Virus record (IMG/VR): IMGVR_UViG_3300006793_000261
Coordinates: 1-24,907 of that record
Length of the DNA stretch: 24,907 nucleotides
Direction: 5' to 3' (one strand)
From: a virus
The notes under the pieces are model-generated. The model did not search any database. It was not told the DNA's origin and saw only the letters and a program-made list of their open reading frames with translations. Positions 158 to 24,907 of the stretch are shown piece by piece. A program made the translations under genes and the position numbers. Position 1 is the first letter of the stretch. The number at the start of each line of letters is the position of its first letter.

Positions 158-1336
158 TTATATTACAAAAAAATCATATCTGTTTTTATATCTACTGTAC
201 ACACAATATCTGAGCGCGTCCATACAATGATCGTTTTTTGATATAGGTTTATTTATTATTGTTCCATCTTTCATTTCTTCCCAAAAATATGTTAATTGTT
301 CTTTTTTCATATTTTTACTCTCATTGGAAATTATTACTTCAAATTCTTTAACTAAACTAATTCCAGCATTTATAGATCCTTGCCCTTTAATTGATGGTTT
401 AGCCAAGCAATCCATCTGTCTTAATTCTTCTATTGATTTTGGTTCAGCACTATCACAATACATTAAAATATCATTTAATTTATTATTTTTTAAAAATTCT
501 GCTAGATCCCGGTTAGTCATTCCCTTCTTGTATAGCCACTCGTGAACATATAATTTGTCGCCAACTTTTCCAACTTGTAAAACCACTGCGGGATCATTTG
601 AATAGCCGAAATCAACACCCAGTGCGGTTTCGTTAAATTCCGGGAACTCAATATGTGGTATGTATTTCCAGTTTTTAAATATTTGTCTGTTACTAAATAC
701 GGCTCTTTGTCCTTCACCGTAAACCAGCCAATAATCAGGGTCACGCTCTCTAATCCTTTCAATCTCATCTATTAACTCCTTTGGTAAAAATTTATTATCC
801 TTGTATGTGCTTATAAATAGATCAGCGTCATCACGCTCTGATAAATCATATAAAAAATGTATTGGATCGGAAGGGTTAAAATCAATTAAAATTTCGTTTC
901 TAGTTCTCATTGCTAACTGTTGATAATCTTCAAAAAATAATTCATTCCCTTCATTGATCCAAAGTATATCTCTTGCAGATCCTCTAATTTTTTGTGCGTC
1001 ATCAGCACTAAACATTTCTAATGTATGCCCGTTATATGTAAAAGTGTTTTCAGATTTATTGTGTTTACCTAGCCAATAAATACCAAGTTGTTTACTTATA
1101 AATAAAAAATCCCTTAACACAGATCTTTTAAGGGCCGGCAGTGTTTTTCTGACTATTGATATAGTGAGCGGATCTTTAGCCACTGACATAGTGTATAAAC
1201 AATATTGCATCAGTGACCAACTTTTCCCGGACCGCGTACCGCCTTGAAAAATTTTTAATCTTTTTGTAGAATCTATTGCTTGATAAAATTGTTTGTTACA
1301 ATATTCTTTTAATCTTTTTCTGTTGCTGGTGTCCAT
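158..1336 (-). CDS. terL: Terminase large subunit (ATPase-nuclease)
   Basis: This is the motor that pumps phage DNA into the prohead and cuts the concatemer. The N-terminal ATPase has a Walker A at residues 32-40 (GGTRSGKSW) and a Walker B with catalytic Glu at about 123-129 (ILWINEG). The C-terminal RNase H-like nuclease shows the three expected acidic residues: D242 in VDFGYSNDP, D295 in MYCDSAEP and D373 in HCMDALRY. The length (392 aa) is slightly short but complete for the PBSX/Terminase_6-type group. The start at 1336 lies inside the end of terS (28-base overlap), implying translational coupling. Portal follows, the standard packaging order. Confidence 0.95.
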   Translation of the reverse strand: MDTSNRKRLKEYCNKQFYQAIDSTKRLKIFQGGTRSGKSWSLMQYCLYTMSVAKDPLTISIVRKTLPALKRSVLRDFLFISKQLGIYWLGKHNKSENTFTYNGHTLEMFSADDAQKIRGSARDILWINEGNELFFEDYQQLAMRTRNEILIDFNPSDPIHFLYDLSERDDADLFISTYKDNKFLPKELIDEIERIRERDPDYWLVYGEGQRAVFSNRQIFKNWKYIPHIEFPEFNETALGVDFGYSNDPAVVLQVGKVGDKLYVHEWLYKKGMTNRDLAEFLKNNKLNDILMYCDSAEPKSIEELRQMDCLAKPSIKGQGSINAGISLVKEFEVIISNESKNMKKEQLTYFWEEMKDGTIINKPISKNDHCMDALRYCVYSRYKNRYDFFVI

Positions 1337-1665
1337 TCAATTAATAGGTTTTCCGGTGGGTTTGCTTCATGCTGTATTTCTTGTCTTTCAACCCAACCCC
1401 TTTCCTTTCCAATGGTTTTAAGGGCAAATATTATTGATGCTTTATCACCTTCATTTATCTTTTCAACTAATTTACTTGTGACAAAATCTAAAAATAATTC
1501 CTTTGGTTGAATATCATTTATTTGTTCGTTAAAATCGTCATCTTTATTAATCCAATTATAATAAGTGCTTCGAGCAATACCAACTCTATTACAAGACATT
1601 GTTATATTGCCAAACGTCTTTGTATAAGCGTCAATAAATGCCTTTTTAGTAAGTTTACTGTCCAT
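1309..1665 (-). CDS. terS: Terminase small subunit
   Basis: This 118-aa protein directly precedes and overlaps terL. Residues 5-40 form a helix-turn-helix: a helix ending in AYTKTFGN, then the ITMSCNRVGIARSTYYNWI recognition segment. That architecture is typical of small terminases, which bind the packaging site and regulate the large subunit. The remainder is charged and helical, as expected for the oligomerisation part. The start ATG at 1665 has no Shine-Dalgarno; a TATTTTTGTA box lies 14 bases upstream. Function is assigned from fold plus position, which together are strong. Confidence 0.87.
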   Translation of the reverse strand: MDSKLTKKAFIDAYTKTFGNITMSCNRVGIARSTYYNWINKDDDFNEQINDIQPKELFLDFVTSKLVEKINEGDKASIIFALKTIGKERGWVERQEIQHEANPPENLLIEWTPATEKD

Positions 1666-1671
1666 AATCGT

Positions 1672-2187
1672 CTATTTAGTACAAAAATACTTTATTTTGT
1701 TTAATATCTTTTTGTATTCAGTTTTTGTGTTATTCTTATATACTTCTACTGTGTTATTTTTTTTTATGTTTTCTATTTTTGTTTGCTTAGATTTTATAAA
1801 TTTTTGTGATTGATTGTCTTTTCTTTTTTCGTGTCTAAGTTTTTCAGTGTCGCTATTTACTTCAATTACTATTATATCACATTCAAATTTATTAAAAAAG
1901 CTTTGATTAAATAATCTATCACCTTCAAATAATATTTTACCATCTGTAATTTTATTACAAAATCTTATAAAATCCGGTTGTACAGCCATAGATAATTTAT
2001 CAGTGCCACTAAATACTGATTTATTATATATTCCAATGATATACAGTTGTTGTTTACTAAAATACATTCCCCGTACTAAGCCAAAATTAAATTTTACAAA
2101 GGGTTTATATGTTTTAATTATTTCTTTTATCAGTGTTGTCTTGCCTGTAGCGGGTTTACCGCCCAGTGCTAATATTCTGTTAGCCAT
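1672..2187 (-). CDS. P-loop kinase, probable 5-hydroxymethylpyrimidine DNA kinase
   Basis: A 171-aa nucleoside-kinase-like P-loop protein. Walker A is at residues 10-17 (GKPATGKT). Residues 40-76 carry a GLVRGMYF stretch and an SGTDKLSMAVQPDF block that I associate with the phage kinase family placed beside aGPT-PPlase/ADDT transferases, of which characterised members phosphorylate 5-hydroxymethyluracil in DNA. A second conserved patch (KILFEGDRLF, about 84-93) and an IIVIEVNSDTEKLRHEKR lid-like Arg/Lys patch follow. Its start overlaps the transferase gene by 19 bases, so the two are co-translated. Predicted role: it activates the hydroxymethyl group made by the TET/JBP enzyme. The P-loop assignment is certain; the base specificity is inferred from context. 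Confidence 0.72.
   Translation of the reverse strand: MANRILALGGKPATGKTTLIKEIIKTYKPFVKFNFGLVRGMYFSKQQLYIIGIYNKSVFSGTDKLSMAVQPDFIRFCNKITDGKILFEGDRLFNQSFFNKFECDIIVIEVNSDTEKLRHEKRKDNQSQKFIKSKQTKIENIKKNNTVEVYKNNTKTEYKKILNKIKYFCTK
1680..1689 (-). promoter_or_regulatory. TAnnTTTGTA box before terS
   Basis: On the minus strand this reads TATTTTTGTA, matching the Bacteroidota -7 consensus TAnnTTTG plus the TA found at several sister sites in this window. It lies in the last codons of the kinase gene, 14 bases before the terS ATG. No -33 TTTG is seen at the usual distance, so this is either a phage-modified promoter or a shared leader signal. It would allow packaging genes to be expressed separately from the modification cassette. 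Confidence 0.4.
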
Positions 2188-3044
2188 TTTTTTTGATAGT
2201 TTTCGTTTCTAAAATCCCACAATACACTCCAATCAACACCGGTTTTAACAAGATCTTGTATTTTTTGTATTTCTTTTTTCTGTCTTTCAATGTAATATCC
2301 AATGTATCTTTTACCTCGTTTATATTTTTTATAAGCACATAAAGTAGTTTCTACATTCCATATATTTTTATGCTGTATATCATAATTGTTTACGTTTTTC
2401 ATTAATTGCTTAAATTCATATTGTAAATAATTAATTTGATTTTTAGACAATTTTCTGTCGTTTTTATGCGTGTATAATTCTTCTTTGCCTAAATGTTCAA
2501 CTAAACCGTTTCGGCAGCTCTCGGCTTGTCTAAGGTCTAAATAAGTTGGTTTTAAATTGTAATCCGTTAATACATTTATCATTTCTATATAAATAAACAA
2601 AGTAAAACGGCCGAAATTCTTAATGTTATTTAACTGTGTAAAACAATTATCGTATGTCATCTGAGGTGTTGGTTGTTTTAAACTAGAAAAATAATCAGCT
2701 TGTGTCATATTTCCAAGCATTTCTTTATAGCTTATAAATGTTTCAACTAATTTGTTTGATGATTTTATTCTTAATCTATCTGTTTGAAATATTGTTTTTT
2801 GTTTGTTTTCATTCCACCATTTCTGTAATCTATTTACATTAACATTTTCGTAATCCGGGAATTCATTATACATATAAAATACAGTGGTTGGAGAATAACA
2901 AGTGCCATATAAAAAAGCAAGCCAATATCTTTGTTCAATGTTAAGCTCAAACCTATCACATACATATTTTAAACAATCATTACTCGGGTCAATATCTTTT
3001 GCTTTAGATGATTCTATGTGATAATCTATGTAATTATAACTCAT
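2169..3044 (-). CDS. Amino acid:DNA transferase (aGPT-PPlase/ADDT family)
   Basis: A 291-aa mostly helical protein. Recognisable blocks are WLAFLYGTCYSPTTVF (41-56), FQTDRLRIKSSNKLVETFIS (86-105), NFGRFTLFIYIEM (143-155), QAESCRNGLVEHLG (173-186), IWNVETTLCAYKKY (228-241), RYIGYYIERQ (246-255) and GVDWSVLWDFR (269-279). I recognise this pattern as the DNA-glycosylase-like alpha-glutamyl/putrescinyl thymine pyrophosphorylase family. These enzymes displace the (pyro)phosphate on activated hydroxymethyluracil in DNA with an amino acid or polyamine. It overlaps the kinase by 19 bases and the amidotransferase by 11. The family is called from memory of motifs, not a search; the donor amine cannot be read from sequence. 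Confidence 0.7.
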   Translation of the reverse strand: MSYNYIDYHIESSKAKDIDPSNDCLKYVCDRFELNIEQRYWLAFLYGTCYSPTTVFYMYNEFPDYENVNVNRLQKWWNENKQKTIFQTDRLRIKSSNKLVETFISYKEMLGNMTQADYFSSLKQPTPQMTYDNCFTQLNNIKNFGRFTLFIYIEMINVLTDYNLKPTYLDLRQAESCRNGLVEHLGKEELYTHKNDRKLSKNQINYLQYEFKQLMKNVNNYDIQHKNIWNVETTLCAYKKYKRGKRYIGYYIERQKKEIQKIQDLVKTGVDWSVLWDFRNENYQKKWLTEY

Positions 3045-3645
3045 ATATTTCGTATGGTGTTACGATTTCTGGATTATAGCTTGCGTCAACCCGTTTAAAA
3101 ATGTCTTTTGTTGATGCTATAAATATTGCGTTTTTATGTTTTAAGATCCAAGCTGGCCGGTTTTTATTTCTAAATAAATACAGTTTGTTGTCATCTGTTA
3201 ACTGCATACCCGCTATGCTCCCGGACGTGGTTGTAATAAAATCTTTTATTTTTTGTTTATCAGTTCCACATAATAAACTTAATAATTCACCATCATTTTC
3301 AGTGTTCATTTTTACATTGTATTTTTTTTCCATTTCTAATTTTGAGCTCATATCAAGAACTCCATTAAATACAACTGTATTGTTTTCGGATATTATAGGT
3401 TGATTGTTTTTTTTTATTTTATAATCACCGCTAGTAGAGTATCTGTTATGAAATATTAATTTATTTACCATTGGTAATTTTATATCAGTAACATTGTTTT
3501 CTTTTACTGTTTTTAATCCGTCTTTTACATAGCTAAAACCAAAGCTGTGTAAACCTCTTATTTTTGATTGTAAAATTAATTTTTGTAAAATATTGTAATG
3601 TTCCTCAGTTGGGTTTTCTGAGCTGTAACCAATAATACCACACAT
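3034..3645 (-). CDS. Class II glutamine amidotransferase (Ntn hydrolase)
   Basis: A stand-alone 203-aa glutaminase domain. The nucleophile Cys2 directly follows Met (MCGIIGYSS). The substrate loop HNRYSTSGD (66-74) with R68 corresponds to the glutamine carboxylate-binding R-x-x-T segment. VVFNGVLD (91-98) supplies the oxyanion N94-G95 pair, and NTENDGELLSLL (114-125) supplies the D118 that contacts glutamine. No synthetase or transferase domain is fused, so it must hand ammonia to a partner or act on another amide. TAATG overlap with the dioxygenase upstream and 11-base overlap with the transferase downstream place it firmly in the modification operon. Likely role (inference): nitrogen supply or processing of the amino-acid adduct on the modified base. 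Confidence 0.85.
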   Translation of the reverse strand: MCGIIGYSSENPTEEHYNILQKLILQSKIRGLHSFGFSYVKDGLKTVKENNVTDIKLPMVNKLIFHNRYSTSGDYKIKKNNQPIISENNTVVFNGVLDMSSKLEMEKKYNVKMNTENDGELLSLLCGTDKQKIKDFITTTSGSIAGMQLTDDNKLYLFRNKNRPAWILKHKNAIFIASTKDIFKRVDASYNPEIVTPYEIYEL

Positions 3646-4538
3646 TAATAAATTTTTTGACCTTTAGATCTATTTTTAGCAATATTAAGTTCTTCATCCG
3701 CTGAACCACAAGAAATCATTTTTTCCCTGTAATACATTACCAATGATATTCTTGTAGCTTTTTCATCTATTTTATTAATTGGTGTGTTCCCGTGCCATTG
3801 ATGTACGTCAACTAATAATAAATCACAATTCTGTATATCAAACGCAACACCCCACTTTGGAACAACAAAATAACCGCCAGTGTATCTGCCTTTTCTTAAA
3901 ACAACTAAATTTCCAAAACCTTTTTCAAAATCACCTTTATCAGTGTGTACGGCTGTTTGCCAGTTTTTATTTACAGTGACAGTTGTAAATGCTGTATCTG
4001 GTATTACAAAATCTTTACTTGTTTCATCAGCAATTTTTCTTTGTAACTTATAATGTTCTGGCATTAATTCAGAGTATTTTTTGTCAACAAATTTTATTAT
4101 TGGATATGCGTTTTTAAATTTTTTAAACTCATGTTCATTAAATGCTGTTTGACGACAATATGGAAATCTTGCGTTGCGATCGAAAAAACCTATTATACCA
4201 CTGTTTACTTTTTGTAGAGCTTTATTTGTGTTAGACATTGTACCGTCTTTTTTAACCGGGCGCCTTTTTAAAATATCAGTTTCTACATCTCCACTGCTTA
4301 CCCCTCTGTTATTAGTGTGTTTTGCGGCCGTTTTTAAGTTTTCAAATCCTGCTTTAGCTATGTTACCAGGGATTATATTTTTTCTGAATTTCGCAATTAC
4401 GTTCCCAGATTCTTGACATATTACATCAGCATCGTAATTAATTAATAAATTAAAATCTTTATCGCCTAATAGTTTGCCAGATAATTTTGAAGCTTCTTTA
4501 TCAGACATTTTAGGCATTACATTATGCTCTGTTATCAT
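3645..4538 (-). CDS. TET/JBP-family 2-oxoglutarate/Fe(II) dioxygenase
   Basis: A 297-aa enzyme with the TET/JBP core. Iron ligands are H198 and D200 in TAVHTDKGD and H249 in HQWHGNTPI; R263 in TRISLVMYY fits the 2-oxoglutarate carboxylate clamp. The family-typical FPYCRQTAF segment (125-133) and GFGNLVVL strand (207-214) are present, so the active site looks intact. Family members oxidise the 5-methyl group of thymine (JBP) or 5-methylcytosine (TET) in DNA to hydroxymethyl. Neighbours that use hydroxymethyl pyrimidines argue for a biosynthetic first step here. The start overlaps the ParB-like gene by 17 bases. Substrate (T or 5mC) is not decided by the sequence. Confidence 0.87.
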   Translation of the reverse strand: MITEHNVMPKMSDKEASKLSGKLLGDKDFNLLINYDADVICQESGNVIAKFRKNIIPGNIAKAGFENLKTAAKHTNNRGVSSGDVETDILKRRPVKKDGTMSNTNKALQKVNSGIIGFFDRNARFPYCRQTAFNEHEFKKFKNAYPIIKFVDKKYSELMPEHYKLQRKIADETSKDFVIPDTAFTTVTVNKNWQTAVHTDKGDFEKGFGNLVVLRKGRYTGGYFVVPKWGVAFDIQNCDLLLVDVHQWHGNTPINKIDEKATRISLVMYYREKMISCGSADEELNIAKNRSKGQKIY

Positions 4539-5112
4539 TGTATAGTTTTTTAATTGCTTGAAATATGCTATCTGTTAAATTATCTGTTTGTAAAAAATCT
4601 CTTAATTCTAATTCCATTCTTCTGAGTTGCGGCTCAGTTTCAGTTGTTAAAAACAGTTGTACCATTTTTACATGAGAATCGTTTATTTCATCTGGGTATT
4701 CATAATCCTCTTCATTTTCATTTCCAACTTCAAATTCAATGTCATTATCCCATTTAGGCAGATCTAATCCCCAAGAAATTAAATCTTGATTATCCCATAC
4801 GTTTGCCAATATATCGTAATCCCACTCACCGTATGATACATTGTCTTTTATTATAAATTGTCTTTTTTGTTCATCGGTCCAACCTTTAGCTACCACAATA
4901 TGTACTTTTTTAAAACCGGCTGCACTACAAGCTTTTAACCTCATGTTGCCGCCTAATACAATCATATTTTCGTCAACTACCATAGGACGCTTTTCCAACA
5001 TCTCTGGAAAATCTTTTAATGATTGTACTAACTTTTTAAATTTGTGGTCTTTAATAAATCTCGGATTATCCGGATTTGATTTAACTTCCTTAATGTTTAC
5101 TGTTTTTATCAT
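4522..5112 (-). CDS. ParB/sulfiredoxin-fold protein of the modification operon
   Basis: A 196-aa protein whose N-terminal 75 residues form a ParB-like nuclease/NTPase domain: SNPDNPRF (12-19), MVVDENMIVLGGNMRLKA (44-61) with the G-G-N-x-R motif at 54-58, then KKVHIVVAKGWT. A DEQKRQFIIKDN segment follows, as in phage ParB proteins linked to DNA modification enzymes, and the C-terminus is acidic (DIEFEVGNENEEDYEYPDE) and then helical. There is no ParB-type HTH, so plasmid partition is unlikely. It heads the cassette and is preceded by its own TAAATTTGTA box. It might guide the enzymes to DNA or bind nucleotide; the exact role is unknown. Confidence 0.78.
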   Translation of the reverse strand: MIKTVNIKEVKSNPDNPRFIKDHKFKKLVQSLKDFPEMLEKRPMVVDENMIVLGGNMRLKACSAAGFKKVHIVVAKGWTDEQKRQFIIKDNVSYGEWDYDILANVWDNQDLISWGLDLPKWDNDIEFEVGNENEEDYEYPDEINDSHVKMVQLFLTTETEPQLRRMELELRDFLQTDNLTDSIFQAIKKLYNDNRA

Positions 5113-19642: not shown

Positions 19643-22600
19643 TTATTTATTTAATTTATCTACAAATTTAGTTAATTTATCTATTTGTTTTTGCTGATCT
19701 TTGATAGCTTCTATTAATAAACCAGTAATTTTACCATAATCAACACCATATCTATCATTTTCTTTGTCGTGTGTTACAACCTCTGGCAATACCTCTAAAA
19801 TCTCTTGTGCAATAACACCAACTTTTCTTGATTTATCTTTACCCTCTTTTGGTGTGTAATAAACCCCTCTTAATTTATTTACCTTTTCAATAGCACTATC
19901 AACAGTAATAATATTTTCTTTTGCTCTTTTATCTGAGTAAGCAATAACATCTTGAGTTGAATATATCGAACCTGTTACATATAAAGAATAAGATGATGAT
20001 GTTGTTGAATTGCCAATACCTAAACAAAGATTTGTTTTATGATAATAAAAATGCCACCCAGCAGTTGATGAATAATTACCACCATTACCGCTAGAATCAA
20101 ACATATTTGCATTTGTGGCTGAATGATTATCATAAATTCCACTATAACCATTTCTGCTACCAGATGTTCTCCATGCACCATAAGTAGAACCCTCATTACC
20201 ATAAAAATGACCACCGTTTGAATTTGTAAATAAACCTGTACCAGAAGCTAAATTAATCCAAGCTGGAAAATAAGCGTAACCATTACTTCCTTGATATTGC
20301 CATACATAATTTTGATTCCCAGAATATATATTAGTGTTACCACCTTGTGAATGTTTAAATGTCCAATAACCACCCGCATTTAACATGCCTTTATCAGAAC
20401 CACTTGCATATAAGTACATTAAATTAGTACCGCTTGTATTAGTTAAATTTATACCACCATCACTAGCTGAACCACTTTGTATTTTTAAATAAGAACCATT
20501 TAAACCAGATATTCTTTGATTTGTATCTGTAAAACTAATTATACCCTTTAAGGATAAATCGCCGCCAGCAGTAATACTCGCACAATTACTGTTGCCAGCT
20601 CTTCTAAAAATCCAACCCCTAGATGTGTCACTATTCATAGTAAAGTAGGTTGCCCAACTACCATTTACTAATCCGTAACCACCGAATGTTGCTGTTTGCA
20701 TAAACATCATACCATAAGTTGGCTCACCAGCAGAGGAGCCACCATAAAGCGAAATTCCTTTACCATCAGTACCATTTGAACCAGCTACACCAAAAGAATC
20801 AGCTGTTAATCCATTATATACTTGTGCATTACCACTTGTATAAAATCTCATTCTATAACCTTGTGAACTATCCCACATATTTAAAGTACCGCCATCATTC
20901 CACATTTCTTGTACAGCACCGCTATTTGCATTTAAAACAATACCAGAATGTGAGGAACCTTTTACCATTAAAAAGTTATTTACACCAGCAGAGGAAACAG
21001 GATCAGCACCAATACCAACACGATTTAAAGAGCCATGTATGTGCATTCTTACAGCATTATTTGTGTGAAATTCTAATGGAAGAGCATCTCTATTAACAAA
21101 ATAAGAATAGTTTGTATCTAAACCTATAATTACACCTTGAGAATCTAAATTTTGATTAGATCTAGCAATTGATATATAAGCTTGACCGGTAGTTCCTTTT
21201 ACACCTAAATTATAACCATAAGCAGCACCATAAGTAGAGGATGTTGCATTAACTAATAATTGTCCACCAGTAGTTAATCTCATTACACTAGCTCCAGCAG
21301 CATACGAATACCAGTTTAAATTTCTACTTGTTTGGTTTACTATTTGCCAATCTAATGTCTTATTTCCATATAAAAGTATGCCGCCATCTTGATTTTGACC
21401 TCTATTAACTCGCAAGTAATATGCTGCATTAGCATTATCTGAATTTAACCAAATATCACCAGTAACATCTAATTTTCCCTCTGGTGCTATACTACCCATT
21501 CCTATTTGACCATTGTAGTCAATCATCATTCTGGTTGAAGAACCAGTTGCATAACTACCACTTGTAGCAAAATACATTTTAGTTCCATAAGAACCATCTG
21601 TTCTAGTATATATACCAGCTTGTGCATTTGTTCCACTAGATGAATCAGATGCACCAAATGTTATAGCACTACCATAATTATCTGGTGTAGTTGGTACAAG
21701 ATGTAAAGAACCAGTTGTTGTTCCAGGTGTAGTTTCATTCCAGTTAGCAGAGCCACCCTCAATCCAAGTTGGTTGATAGTTATAATTTATGGCTGTTGTT
21801 GTTTGAAATTTAACAACATTATTAACTCTTAATTCAGTATAATTATCTCTCCTAACTCTCACTGCCCAATTTCCATCAGAATCTAAAATACCAACGTTAG
21901 GTTCTGAGGTTTGCCCATTATCGCCATAGAAAAAACCAACTCTTGAACCATCGGTTTGATGTAATTCTAAACCAGTATAAGTTGATGCACCAGCAGACAA
22001 ATGTATGTAACCATTTGAAATTAATCTAGCTTGACCAGTTGTAGTGCCTCTAAATTGGTATGTGTTGTTACTACCAATATACAATTCATCACCAGCACCA
22101 ACTTTTATTACCATAGCATTTGTACCAGCATCCTCAAATGTTAAAGAGGTATCATTACTTGTAATCTTAGATGGTGTTTGAAAATGTGCATGACCTTGAT
22201 TATTTATAGATGCAACATTGGTACTAGTTGATACATTTCTAAAAATCCAACCTCTGTTAGCTCCACTATCCATTGTAAAATAAGTTGCCCAATCACCACT
22301 TACATATCCAAATGTGCTATAACTTGATGTTTTTTGGAACATCATTCCATAGGTAGGTTGACCAGTAAAAGCACCACCATATAAAGAAATACCATTACCA
22401 TCTGTACCATTACTGCCAGACACTCCTATTGATGCCGCAGATAATTTTGAAACAAAAGTTGCATCACCACTTGTGTCTATTGTCAAAACAACACCTGTTC
22501 CATCTGAATCAGATATTTCTAAATTTCTACTTGATTGTACATTAGTAAAAACCCAATTCCCAGTGTTTGCTCCTAAAGTTAAAGATGAATTATTGCCTAC

Positions 22601-24907
22601 TCCATTAACTAATAATGATTGACCAGTTGTTACATTTCCTGTAAAAGTTGAATTTCCAGAACCACCAATAGTTAATCTTGCTGTTTCATTAGTTCCTAAA
22701 ACTAAAGATCTTCCACTGCTATTATGGTATATATGCATAGCTTGATCATCTAAAGCAATAGCACCCTGATAACCTACGCCATCAATCATTAATTGACCAT
22801 TAGCTGATGAATCCATTGATATATTTGCATTACTACCAACTTCAACATTTCCTGTAAAATGTGCTGAGGTGCCGTTTAAATTACCTGTTAGTGTACCACC
22901 AGTTAATGGTAAATAATCAGCTATTGTGTCAGATGACATTGGAAAACAATTTGTTAACGTATTATTAACAGTTGTTTGTGTAGTTACTACACTAATGCCC
23001 CAATCACTTAAATAGTTATTTATATTAGCAGTATAACCAGCAAAAAAATCTTTGACTATAACTTGTAAATGATTCCAAGTGCTAGTCGTATCACCAATCC
23101 AAACACAATGCTCAGTTCCATTATCACCAAATCTAACAGTATAATTTTGTGCTGAACTTTGACCTAAAACTGTTGCAGACACATTGTACCAAGTGGTGTT
23201 ACCACTCCCCACATTTTGATATGTATAACCACCAATAAATACTGTAACACATTCTTGAGTATTATAATCAAATATGTCAACAACAAATTTAATCATATCA
23301 TCATGACCAGTGCCACCAGTCGGTAATGCTATTTGTATTGCACCTGTAAAAACATTTTGAGTAGTGTAAAAACTACCACCATAAGGTTTGTTAATATAAA
23401 AACCACCAGTTGCAGTTTGGTAAACTGATTTTTGAACATTTAAATTATTTACAATATAAGCATCACTTAAGAATTTAGTATCGCCATTAATAAATAATTG
23501 GCTTGCAGTTGAATCATATTTTATACTAGGTCGACCAGCTCCAGCACCAAAAATCATTGGGACATTATCATTAAGCTGTGTTGTAACTAAAATTACATTT
23601 CTGTTAATATTGCCATCTATTTTAAAGTATTCTGTAACACCACCAATACCGTTATCTGATTGAAATACAATACTTTTATCATCTGCTAAATTTTGTATAT
23701 ATAAATCTCCAGTTTTATTTCTAAAATAACCATCAGCTGAACTAAAAAATAATTCAATATCACTATCAGATCCAAATTCAGCTTTTATATTATCTTTAAA
23801 ATAAGCTGGTTTATAAAATTCGTTTTTTTGAATACTACCATCTAACTGAAAATAAAGCTCCTCAGTTCCGCCACCAGCACCATCGGAAACAGTAGCATAG
23901 AAATTTATATCTTTATCAGGATTTGTATTTTGAATTATGAAATTTCCAGTATCATTTTTAATATAACTATCGGTAGCATCATGGTATATTTTTAAATCAT
24001 CATCAGAACCAAAATTCATTGTTACATTGTCTGGTATTCTTATTTGAGGTAAACTATAACCACCATCAAATTTTAAATATTCAGTAGTGTAACCTTGCCC
24101 ATCATCTGTCTGAAAGCTAATGTCTTTGTCATTGGCATTATTTCTAAAAACCATATTTCCAGTATCATTAAAAAATACAGAATTAACTTGATTATGATAT
24201 ATCTGCATATCACCATCATTACCTAAAAGCAATTTTTGATCATCAATAATTTTTAAATCATTTGAACCAGATGAATTACCAGCACTTAAAACAGAGCTTA
24301 ATGTCGGTGTTGGAATAGTTTGATCATCTACATATTTTTTTGTAGCAAAGTTTAAATCACTAGTCGGAGCAATACCAGTTACTAAACCAGTAAATGTAGC
24401 TGTTGTTCCACTTATATTATTGTTTACTTGTAAATCATTATCAACAATAGTTTTTTCAAATAAATGTACAGTATTTGAGGTGTCTTCTGTAAACCTCATA
24501 AACTCTGCACCGCCAGTAAAAAACCTTAATCTATCATCAATATCCTCATTAATATATGTATGGCTACCACCACCAAATTTTAATTTTTTAGAAACTGCTA
24601 TACTTACATCATCACTAAAACTTCCAGTGGTTCCGCTTATAGTGCCGCCAGTTACATTACCCTCTAAATTAGCTACAAGAGTTCCAACAGTATATCCACT
24701 TGCTGATGTATCAACAGTTGTTGTTGGCTCAACAGTAGTGCCTATAAATAGCTTAAATTTATCATCACTAGCATCATTGTAAAACCCTTTATACTTTGTA
24801 CCAGTAGCAACGTATTTACCAAATAATCCAATATCTAATGTGTTTGCTGTATTGTCTTTTGCTAATTTTATTAACGGATCCTCGACTGCTAGATCTTGTA
24901 CATTTAA
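19643..24907 (-). CDS. Giant tail fibre with C-terminal S74 chaperone (5' end beyond right edge)
   Basis: The frame is open from the right edge to the stop at 19643 (1754 codons seen). The ATG at 24499 is only an internal Met: upstream codons continue as a fibre-like sequence (VEDPLIKLAKDN, DIGLFGKYVATGTKYKGFYN) without a stop. The body is Gly/Ser/Thr/Asn-rich beta structure with repeated units. The end is a peptidase S74 intramolecular chaperone: AYSDKRAKENI with the autocleavage Ser codon at 19934-19936, then KVGVIAQEILEVLPEV and YGKITGLLIEAIKDQQ, leaving about 97 residues after the cut. It trimerises the fibre and is released. The fibre binds the host surface. Codon and word usage differ from genes below 18.4 kb. 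Confidence 0.92.
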   Translation of the reverse strand, partial: LNVQDLAVEDPLIKLAKDNTANTLDIGLFGKYVATGTKYKGFYNDASDDKFKLFIGTTVEPTTTVDTSASGYTVGTLVANLEGNVTGGTISGTTGSFSDDVSIAVSKKLKFGGGSHTYINEDIDDRLRFFTGGAEFMRFTEDTSNTVHLFEKTIVDNDLQVNNNISGTTATFTGLVTGIAPTSDLNFATKKYVDDQTIPTPTLSSVLSAGNSSGSNDLKIIDDQKLLLGNDGDMQIYHNQVNSVFFNDTGNMVFRNNANDKDISFQTDDGQGYTTEYLKFDGGYSLPQIRIPDNVTMNFGSDDDLKIYHDATDSYIKNDTGNFIIQNTNPDKDINFYATVSDGAGGGTEELYFQLDGSIQKNEFYKPAYFKDNIKAEFGSDSDIELFFSSADGYFRNKTGDLYIQNLADDKSIVFQSDNGIGGVTEYFKIDGNINRNVILVTTQLNDNVPMIFGAGAGRPSIKYDSTASQLFINGDTKFLSDAYIVNNLNVQKSVYQTATGGFYINKPYGGSFYTTQNVFTGAIQIALPTGGTGHDDMIKFVVDIFDYNTQECVTVFIGGYTYQNVGSGNTTWYNVSATVLGQSSAQNYTVRFGDNGTEHCVWIGDTTSTWNHLQVIVKDFFAGYTANINNYLSDWGISVVTTQTTVNNTLTNCFPMSSDTIADYLPLTGGTLTGNLNGTSAHFTGNVEVGSNANISMDSSANGQLMIDGVGYQGAIALDDQAMHIYHNSSGRSLVLGTNETARLTIGGSGNSTFTGNVTTGQSLLVNGVGNNSSLTLGANTGNWVFTNVQSSRNLEISDSDGTGVVLTIDTSGDATFVSKLSAASIGVSGSNGTDGNGISLYGGAFTGQPTYGMMFQKTSSYSTFGYVSGDWATYFTMDSGANRGWIFRNVSTSTNVASINNQGHAHFQTPSKITSNDTSLTFEDAGTNAMVIKVGAGDELYIGSNNTYQFRGTTTGQARLISNGYIHLSAGASTYTGLELHQTDGSRVGFFYGDNGQTSEPNVGILDSDGNWAVRVRRDNYTELRVNNVVKFQTTTAINYNYQPTWIEGGSANWNETTPGTTTGSLHLVPTTPDNYGSAITFGASDSSSGTNAQAGIYTRTDGSYGTKMYFATSGSYATGSSTRMMIDYNGQIGMGSIAPEGKLDVTGDIWLNSDNANAAYYLRVNRGQNQDGGILLYGNKTLDWQIVNQTSRNLNWYSYAAGASVMRLTTGGQLLVNATSSTYGAAYGYNLGVKGTTGQAYISIARSNQNLDSQGVIIGLDTNYSYFVNRDALPLEFHTNNAVRMHIHGSLNRVGIGADPVSSAGVNNFLMVKGSSHSGIVLNANSGAVQEMWNDGGTLNMWDSSQGYRMRFYTSGNAQVYNGLTADSFGVAGSNGTDGKGISLYGGSSAGEPTYGMMFMQTATFGGYGLVNGSWATYFTMNSDTSRGWIFRRAGNSNCASITAGGDLSLKGIISFTDTNQRISGLNGSYLKIQSGSASDGGINLTNTSGTNLMYLYASGSDKGMLNAGGYWTFKHSQGGNTNIYSGNQNYVWQYQGSNGYAYFPAWINLASGTGLFTNSNGGHFYGNEGSTYGAWRTSGSRNGYSGIYDNHSATNANMFDSSGNGGNYSSTAGWHFYYHKTNLCLGIGNSTTSSSYSLYVTGSIYSTQDVIAYSDKRAKENIITVDSAIEKVNKLRGVYYTPKEGKDKSRKVGVIAQEILEVLPEVVTHDKENDRYGVDYGKITGLLIEAIKDQQKQIDKLTKFVDKLNK
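19661..19670 (-). promoter_or_regulatory. TAAATTTGTA box in the end of the fibre gene
   Basis: Exact minus-strand TAAATTTGTA, inside the last fibre codons, 20 bases before the 117-aa gene ATG. The protein sequence there (TKFVDKLNK) also constrains these bases, so chance is possible. Confidence 0.32.
20565..20800 (-). repeat. Fibre internal duplication, copy 2
   Basis: Encodes GVAGSNGTDGKGISLYGG, PTYGMMFMQTATFGGYG and SRGWIFRRAGNSNCASI. It matches the segment encoded at about 22205-22435 over roughly 75 residues, so a domain was duplicated within the gene. Confidence 0.75.
22205..22435 (-). repeat. Fibre internal duplication, copy 1
   Basis: Encodes GVSGSNGTDGNGISLYGG, PTYGMMFQKTSSYSTFGYV and NRGWIFRNVSTSTNVASI, the upstream partner of the copy at about 20565-20800. 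Differences cluster in loop residues, suggesting divergence of exposed surfaces. Confidence 0.75.
23610..24270 (-). repeat. Fibre repeats of about 70 residues (three copies)
   Basis: Three consecutive units each contain a GSDxDLKIYHD-type strand, a DTGNxxxQN turn, a DKDIxF strand and a GGxTEYxKxDG end. Examples are GDMQIYHNQVNSVFFNDTGN, DDLKIYHDATDSYIKNDTGN and SDIELFFSSADGYFRNKTGD. They form a triple-beta shaft. Confidence 0.7.

Follow-up and report, generated by a model that had tools for sequence, protein, structure and literature searches.

Known phage TET systems use a C5-cytosine methyltransferase (C5-MTase) and make glycosylated cytosine, according to the available text of PMC12730594. 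In the marine phage DNA analysed here (the window; 24,907 nucleotides, IMG/VR record IMGVR_UViG_3300006793_000261), a TET/JBP-like gene lies in one operon with genes for a kinase and an amino acid:DNA transferase (ADDT), which raises the question of which base this oxygenase hydroxylates and whether it does so in DNA. A sequence-only reading of the window had favored a JBP-like hydroxylase acting on thymine in DNA.

The TET/JBP dioxygenase and its operon

Positions 3645-4538 hold, on the minus strand, a single open frame of 297 codons; the plus strand across the same interval has many stops. The product matches the Pfam family Tet_JBP (PF12851; E 1.6e-27, 96.2 bits, exceeding the curated cut-off of 34.9) and carries the HxD...H iron triad and the 2-oxoglutarate arginine (H198, D200, H249, and R263), which all 57 aligned relatives share and which align with those of TET2. 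The AlphaFold2 model (mean pLDDT 92.9) is structurally closest to the TET2-DNA complex (Z 21.2, 261 residues, 3.4 A), followed by NgTET1 (Z 19.1), CMD1 (19.0), and CcTet (17.8), with ALKBH3 (13.8) representing the next family; the best 16 rows contain only TET2, NgTET1, CMD1, and CcTet, which are enzymes of DNA bases. Fungal thymine-7-hydroxylase is not among the 50 best structural matches listed, which excludes nothing. At the sequence level, a phmmer search with the single protein gave no significant match in the PDB, and a 14-row TET profile gave a confident match to TET2 alone (1.6e-7); the NCBIfam scan returned no model for TET or ADDT. The earlier assignment of a TET/JBP enzyme to this interval is borne out by family, catalytic residues, and fold.

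The gene belongs to a tight run with the order ParB-TET-glutaminase-ADDT-kinase-terminase (small, then large; Table 1). The ParB-like protein has top PHROG matches of 4e-25 and 2.5e-24, the latter being ParB-like; a ParB-like gene also stands ahead of TET in phages Prince, Tonitrus, and MementoMori, and its product may direct TET to DNA. The glutaminase between TET and ADDT, an extra piece absent from the sequence-only reading, matches the PurF model of NCBIfam (5.9e-11, below cut-off) and a PHROG (4.5e-16). Relatives of ADDT are found chiefly in Salmonella, Vibrio, and Klebsiella phages, many of them Ackermannviridae. The adjoining kinase has Ploopntkinase3 as its best Pfam match (PF18751; 0.0019, below cut-off) and conserved Walker A and FEGDR motifs; its sole isolate relative is that of Caulobacter phage Cr30 (2e-20), which also carries TET and ADDT. 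The scanned window proteins include no recognizable DNA polymerase, consistent with finished DNA being the target of modification.

Table 1. Coordinates of the TET operon and adjoining terminase genes in the window
Feature	Position	Strand	Basis
ParB/Srx-like protein, 196 aa, upstream of TET; proposed DNA-targeting partner	4522..5112	-	PF02195 1.9e-4, just below cut-off
TET/JBP-family Fe(II)/2-oxoglutarate dioxygenase, 297 aa; proposed thymine (DNA) 5-methyl hydroxylase	3645..4538	-	PF12851, catalytic residues, AlphaFold2 fold
Stand-alone class-II (Ntn) glutamine amidotransferase domain, 203 aa, N-terminus MCGIIGY	3034..3645	-	PF13522 1.2e-4, below cut-off
ADDT, amino acid:DNA transferase, 291 aa	2169..3044	-	PF18724 1.6e-15, above cut-off
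P-loop kinase, 171 aa; proposed 5-hydroxymethyl-dU DNA kinase	1672..2187	-	PF18751, Walker A
Putative small terminase (HTH), downstream end of cassette	1309..1665	-	PF13022 4.6e-6, below cut-off; precedes TerL
Large terminase (context)	158..1336	-	PF04466 4.1e-18; gene order as in actinophage Prince

Names deposited for such genes are misleading in several phage records (H5-H9, H121, H137, and H81), where TET appears as 'SNF2 DNA repair protein' or 'queuine tRNA-ribosyltransferase', ADDT as 'DNA glycosylase', and the kinase as 'adenylate kinase' or 'terminase small subunit'. Elsewhere in the window, 19643-24499 (-) encodes a repetitive tail-fibre-like protein of 1618 aa, the end of which presumably resembles an intramolecular chaperone domain.

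TET clades, the base pocket, and C5-methyltransferases

Neighboring genes were assigned with models built in this analysis (ADDT, kinase, GAT, TAGT, FAD, GNAT, and C5MT; threshold E 1e-6). Of the 72 loci with TETs of the type found in Methylophilales phage Melnitz, 67 have a C5-MTase nearby and none has ADDT; these loci serve as a positive control for C5-MTase linkage. In the clade of the window TET, C5-MTase occurs in 2 of 86 loci (L039 and L095, the latter with the order TET-TAGT-C5MT) and ADDT in 54; the corresponding numbers for Cr30-type TETs are 0 and 52 of 84. This linkage list contains L001 and L009 (L009 without a TET match), in place of which the residue alignment and the cassette counts given below hold L011 and L012. 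The earlier assignment of both the kinase and ADDT to thymine hypermodification stands for ADDT (PF18724, 1.6e-15); the kinase was rejected as a thymine marker by itself, since relatives of it lie near TETs of the C5-MTase clade in 28 of 72 loci. The Melnitz locus itself (L021:4010-8087) holds C5-MTase, TET, and an unmatched 427-aa protein, followed by a P-loop kinase that comes close to PF18751 (0.00077); this arrangement suggests a phosphorylated-hmC pathway, of which the 427-aa protein could be the transferase.

In a tree of 39 of 246 rows remaining after 65% thinning, with TETs shorter than 230 aa excluded, the C5-linked TETs form one clade (100/99) that excludes the window TET and is set off by a branch of 3.0 changes per column; its position relative to the actinophage rows is unsure, because the long branches of the two groups meet. 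The window TET falls in a set of five rows (98/96) that mixes ADDT-linked and TAGT-linked TETs. The C5-linked clade differs from the other TETs at many conserved positions.

Residues of the base pocket were also considered. D203 of the window TET aligns with TET2 N1387, and at this position NgTet1 D234 and CMD1 D350 bond N4 of 5-methylcytosine (5mC), as stated in the available text of PMC11040006. Aspartate occupies this position in all 87 TETs of the window clade, in 82 of 84 of the Cr30 type, and in all 69 aligned ones of the Melnitz type; being common to all three large clades, the C5-linked one included, it means that the active site shows no thymine preference by itself. Judged by the alignment, D203 looks like part of a cytosine pocket and would count against thymine, and it does not separate the clades. 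Position 271 is arginine in all 171 window-clade and Cr30-type TETs, whereas it is aspartate in 65 of 68 Melnitz-type TETs. The equivalent residues of TET2 (H1904), NgTet1 (H297), and CcTet (R393) contact O2 according to the same text (PMC11040006); the difference is not telling, because O2 is common to cytosine and thymine and the 5mC enzyme CcTet also has arginine there. Actinophage TETs, several of which are ADDT-linked, have N203 and L or I271, and for all these reasons positions 203 and 271 were rejected as a thymine signature. The consulted text of the thymine-7-hydroxylase paper offers no residue transferable to the TET/JBP family (PMC4787775), and that of the JBP1 paper does not name base-pocket residues (PMC10276184).

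The shared D203 would suit an enzyme of no narrow base preference, which would oxidize thymine and 5mC alike and leave its partners to decide the product; a title in the reference list of PMC10415333 likewise reports that TET proteins oxidize thymine too. Such breadth is nevertheless unlikely for the window TET, given the remoteness of the C5-linked clade in the tree and its many differences at conserved positions.

Genome searches bear on the source of a methylated substrate. A search for a C5-MTase or a dUMP hydroxymethylase, which the sequence-only reading had put forward as a check, found neither PF00145 nor the thymidylate-synthase fold PF00303 in the window or in its near-complete relative G004; the model of the ViI-type dUMP-hydroxymethylase-like enzyme likewise has no match in the window. 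As the window is a fragment of 24.9 kb, the lack of PF00145 in it is weak evidence by itself. G004 comprises 35,517 bases, encodes a TET 95% identical to that of the window, and aligns collinearly with the window in pieces that share 72-86% DNA identity; beyond the window it holds genes for portal, head morphogenesis, protease (start cut), major capsid, connector, and endolysin, and it also has tail and terminase genes.

Outside Melnitz, PF00145 was found in 4 of 125 records with related TETs, most of the metagenomic ones being fragments: 0 of 18 first records, 4 of 50 window-clade records (drawn from 76 loci), 0 of 50 Cr30-type records (from 80 loci, and including records of 161, 168, and 197 kb), and 0 of 7 further phages; Melnitz itself is positive (1/1). 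PF00145 is absent from all 14 phages of a cleaner set of isolates (W01-W07 and W09-W15), and PF00303 from 100 further TET records (50 window-clade and 50 Cr30-type). Among the four positive cousins, one has a convincing C5-MTase, two have short proteins above the cut-off, and one falls below it; frames like these four were found in neither the window nor G004. The earlier observation that no C5-MTase is visible holds for the window and G004; a C5-MTase elsewhere, which the sequence-only reading would have taken as a refutation, does occur in the cousin L039 of the window clade, which has a true PF00145 protein (2.7e-42) about 4.5 kb upstream of TET. Three cousins encode short, putative PF00145-like proteins (L310:320-1012 (-), L312:393-1052 (+), and L311:593-1273 (+)), which are 220-231 aa long and contain an SPPC motif; an SPPC motif is discussed for phage cytosine carboxymethyltransferases in the available text of PMC12783734.

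Exchange of proposed hmU sources and tailoring genes

Two scans in which loci were picked by ADDT, not by TET, yielded 26 + 13 = 39 viral loci. Fourteen have TET without a dUMP-hydroxymethylase-like gene, 24 have the reverse, none has both, and one, the 4.4-kb fragment L358, has neither. Among the 25 ViI-type loci (L337-L361), all without TET within the locus, 19 have PF00303 anywhere in the record, three more match the ViI-type enzyme model, and a further two were recognized on reading full records (7.6e-91 and 2.5e-90). The remaining 14 loci (L362, L363-L373, L005, and L006; L363 is the same contig as L022) have TET in every case and PF00303 in none. In whole-record searches, eight Ackermannviridae-type ADDT phages have a divergent PF00303 protein (8/8) and no TET (0/8), and the other ADDT phages have TET (4/4), with PF00303 in Cr30 alone; the Cr30 protein is a canonical thymidylate synthase (3.9e-113), and so would make thymine, not hmU.

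Each scan was seeded with phages of a single type, so that its loci depend on one another, and the hmU source is nearly fixed per seed group; since, in addition, the ViI-type loci are mostly of one family, the pattern corresponds to few independent swaps, not 39. L362 was recovered with ViI-type seeds, yet carries TET, and L364-L366 combine a short ADDT with the window's kind of TET; these loci argue that ADDT and hmU source have recombined more than once. This distribution of genes suggests that TET probably takes the place of dUMP hydroxymethylase and oxidizes thymine in DNA. It also supports the earlier proposal of a route distinct from that of dUMP hydroxymethylase, as the two genes never occur together in the 39 ADDT loci.

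The same distribution weighs against a reading in which TET oxidizes 5mC made by an MTase of the host, or by one encoded beyond the 24.9-kb fragment, with the kinase and ADDT re-tasked to 5hmC. The precedent of known phage TET systems, the match of D203 to the N4-contact residue of 5mC enzymes, the kinase relatives near C5-clade TETs, and the true C5-MTase of L039 would all agree with it; however, the mutual exclusion of TET and the dUMP-hydroxymethylase-like gene in ADDT phages, the lack of PF00145 in the 14 isolate relatives and in G004, and the lack of ADDT in all 72 C5-clade loci render it improbable. Oxidation of thymidine as a nucleotide (dTMP or dTTP), after which a polymerase would insert hmdU as it does in the classical route, would also fit the observed swap, the known dUMP-hydroxymethylase route being nucleotide-level, but it is highly improbable in view of the DNA-base enzymes that fill the model's best 16 rows, the lack of a DNA polymerase among the window proteins scanned, and the coupling of the ParB-like protein to TET.

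Hydroxylation of thymine in phage DNA, feeding the kinase and ADDT, is therefore the likely explanation of the operon. It is supported by the near-absence of C5-MTase (4/125), by its presence beside Melnitz-type TETs (67/72), and by the exclusion between TET and hydroxymethylase; the JBP-like hydroxylase of the sequence-only reading thus gains support at the pathway level, short of proof, to which D203 adds nothing. The dioxygenase would hydroxylate the thymine 5-methyl group after (or during) replication to give 5-hydroxymethyl-dU in the polymer, and the kinase would then phosphorylate the hydroxymethyl group. ADDT would put a nitrogen nucleophile in place of the phosphate. This could be an amino acid, or perhaps ammonia if the glutaminase takes part, and the modified genome might be protected from host nucleases. 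TET would stand in for the nucleotide-level dUMP hydroxymethylase of ViI-like phages.

Tailoring genes are exchanged around a constant TET: ADDT or a glycosyltransferase, and glutaminase or a flavin-type enzyme. In the window TET clade (n = 87, genes on the same strand within 6 kb; many loci are close kin and not 87 independent cases), ADDT occurs in 52 loci, TAGT in 24, and both in none, and the kinase accompanies ADDT in 51 of 52 loci and TAGT in 0 of 24. Glutaminase occurs in 40 loci, the flavin-type protein in 11, and both in none; a GNAT acetyltransferase is present in 24, every one with glutaminase. The ParB-like protein is coupled to TET in these counts. The glutaminases mostly start with MC, as expected of an N-terminal-nucleophile enzyme. 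The flavin-type label, a lead, comes from a weak NAD_binding_8 match (0.032) and a GAGLAG start. The alternation of glutaminase and flavin enzyme beside ADDT suggests alternative routes to a similar amine.

These patterns allow a tentative and rather doubtful joint reading as a swappable 'hmU-in-DNA' platform, with several tailoring cassettes fed by a single thymine-specific TET. The window glutaminase might give ADDT ammonia and thus convert (phospho)hydroxymethyl-dU directly to 5-aminomethyl-dU, as an alternative to the flavin-lyase/aminomethyl chemistry of ADDT with the flavin-type enzyme; the acetyltransferase of sister phages might cap the amine, TAGT might yield a base-J-like glycosyl-hmU, and FkbM a methoxymethyl-U.

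TET is followed by a TAGT glycosyltransferase in several records without PF00145 (L010:6819-9294, L012:16409-18037, L317:813-2441, and L320:4971-7260). Phages with TET-TAGT include P12024L, Acadian, and Altadena, the last of which also has a PIG-L de-N-acetylase; in these phages hmU might carry a sugar like that of base J. TET adjoins an FkbM methyltransferase at L011:7599-9195 and L321:4285-5768 (Pelagibacter phage HTVC112P, Prochlorococcus phage MED4-184) and also in 5 of 86 window-clade loci, where O-methylation of the hydroxymethyl group is possible.

Comparison with known systems

The idea of thymine oxidation in DNA is not new, being already in print for similar operons. Phage JBP-like enzymes were proposed to make hmU for TAGTs (Iyer and colleagues, 2013, as reported in PMC4111573), and the ParB, TET-like, aGPT-Pplase2, and 5-hmU kinase genes of Rhodococcus phage Tonitrus were proposed in 2025 to form a thymidine hypermodification system, with citation of Lee 2018 and 2022 (PMC11955845, available text). 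The modular, glutaminase-bearing cassette is the less described part. In the literature searched, which had most subscription papers outside its reach, no phage TET was found to have been shown biochemically to act on thymine. If the explanation is true, no phage counterpart of JBP would, as far as that literature goes, have been shown before the window TET; biochemists would gain an enzyme for writing hmU into DNA, and the hypermodified thymine of small phages without nucleotide-pool takeover would be explained. The replacement of hydroxymethylase by TET makes it possible to test an old prediction sharply and at low cost.

The cytosine systems of the Melnitz type share the TET fold and catalytic residues with the window, but differ in the C5-MTase beside TET (67/72 loci), in the lack of ADDT, and in forming a separate clade. 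The Tonitrus operon resembles that of the window in its ParB-like, TET-like, ADDT/aGPT-Pplase2, and 5-hmU kinase genes; unlike the window, which has a glutaminase and a TET of another clade, it has an actinophage-clade TET (N203, L271) and no glutaminase in the operon as listed. Mycobacterium phage Prince has the same order, ParB-TET-ADDT-kinase-terminase, and its gp2 was deposited as a thymidine hydroxylase.

ViI-like (Ackermannviridae) systems have an ADDT homologous to that of the window. Phages Vi01 and CBA120 carry 5-NeOmdU at about 40% of thymidines (PMC11721090, available text), made via 5hmdU in DNA and a 5hmdU kinase, with 5-hydroxymethyl-dU in DNA as the substrate of ADDT (PMC6449724, available text). 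These systems have the dUMP-hydroxymethylase-like PF00303 protein and lack TET (8/8 and 0/8), whereas the window shows the reverse. The kinetoplastid thymidine hydroxylases JBP1/JBP2, which act in base J formation, are likened to the window TET by its proposed reaction, thymine to hmU in DNA. The window differs from the base J route in having a kinase and ADDT and no glucosyltransferase; some of its sister phages pair the same kind of TET with a TAGT glycosyltransferase.
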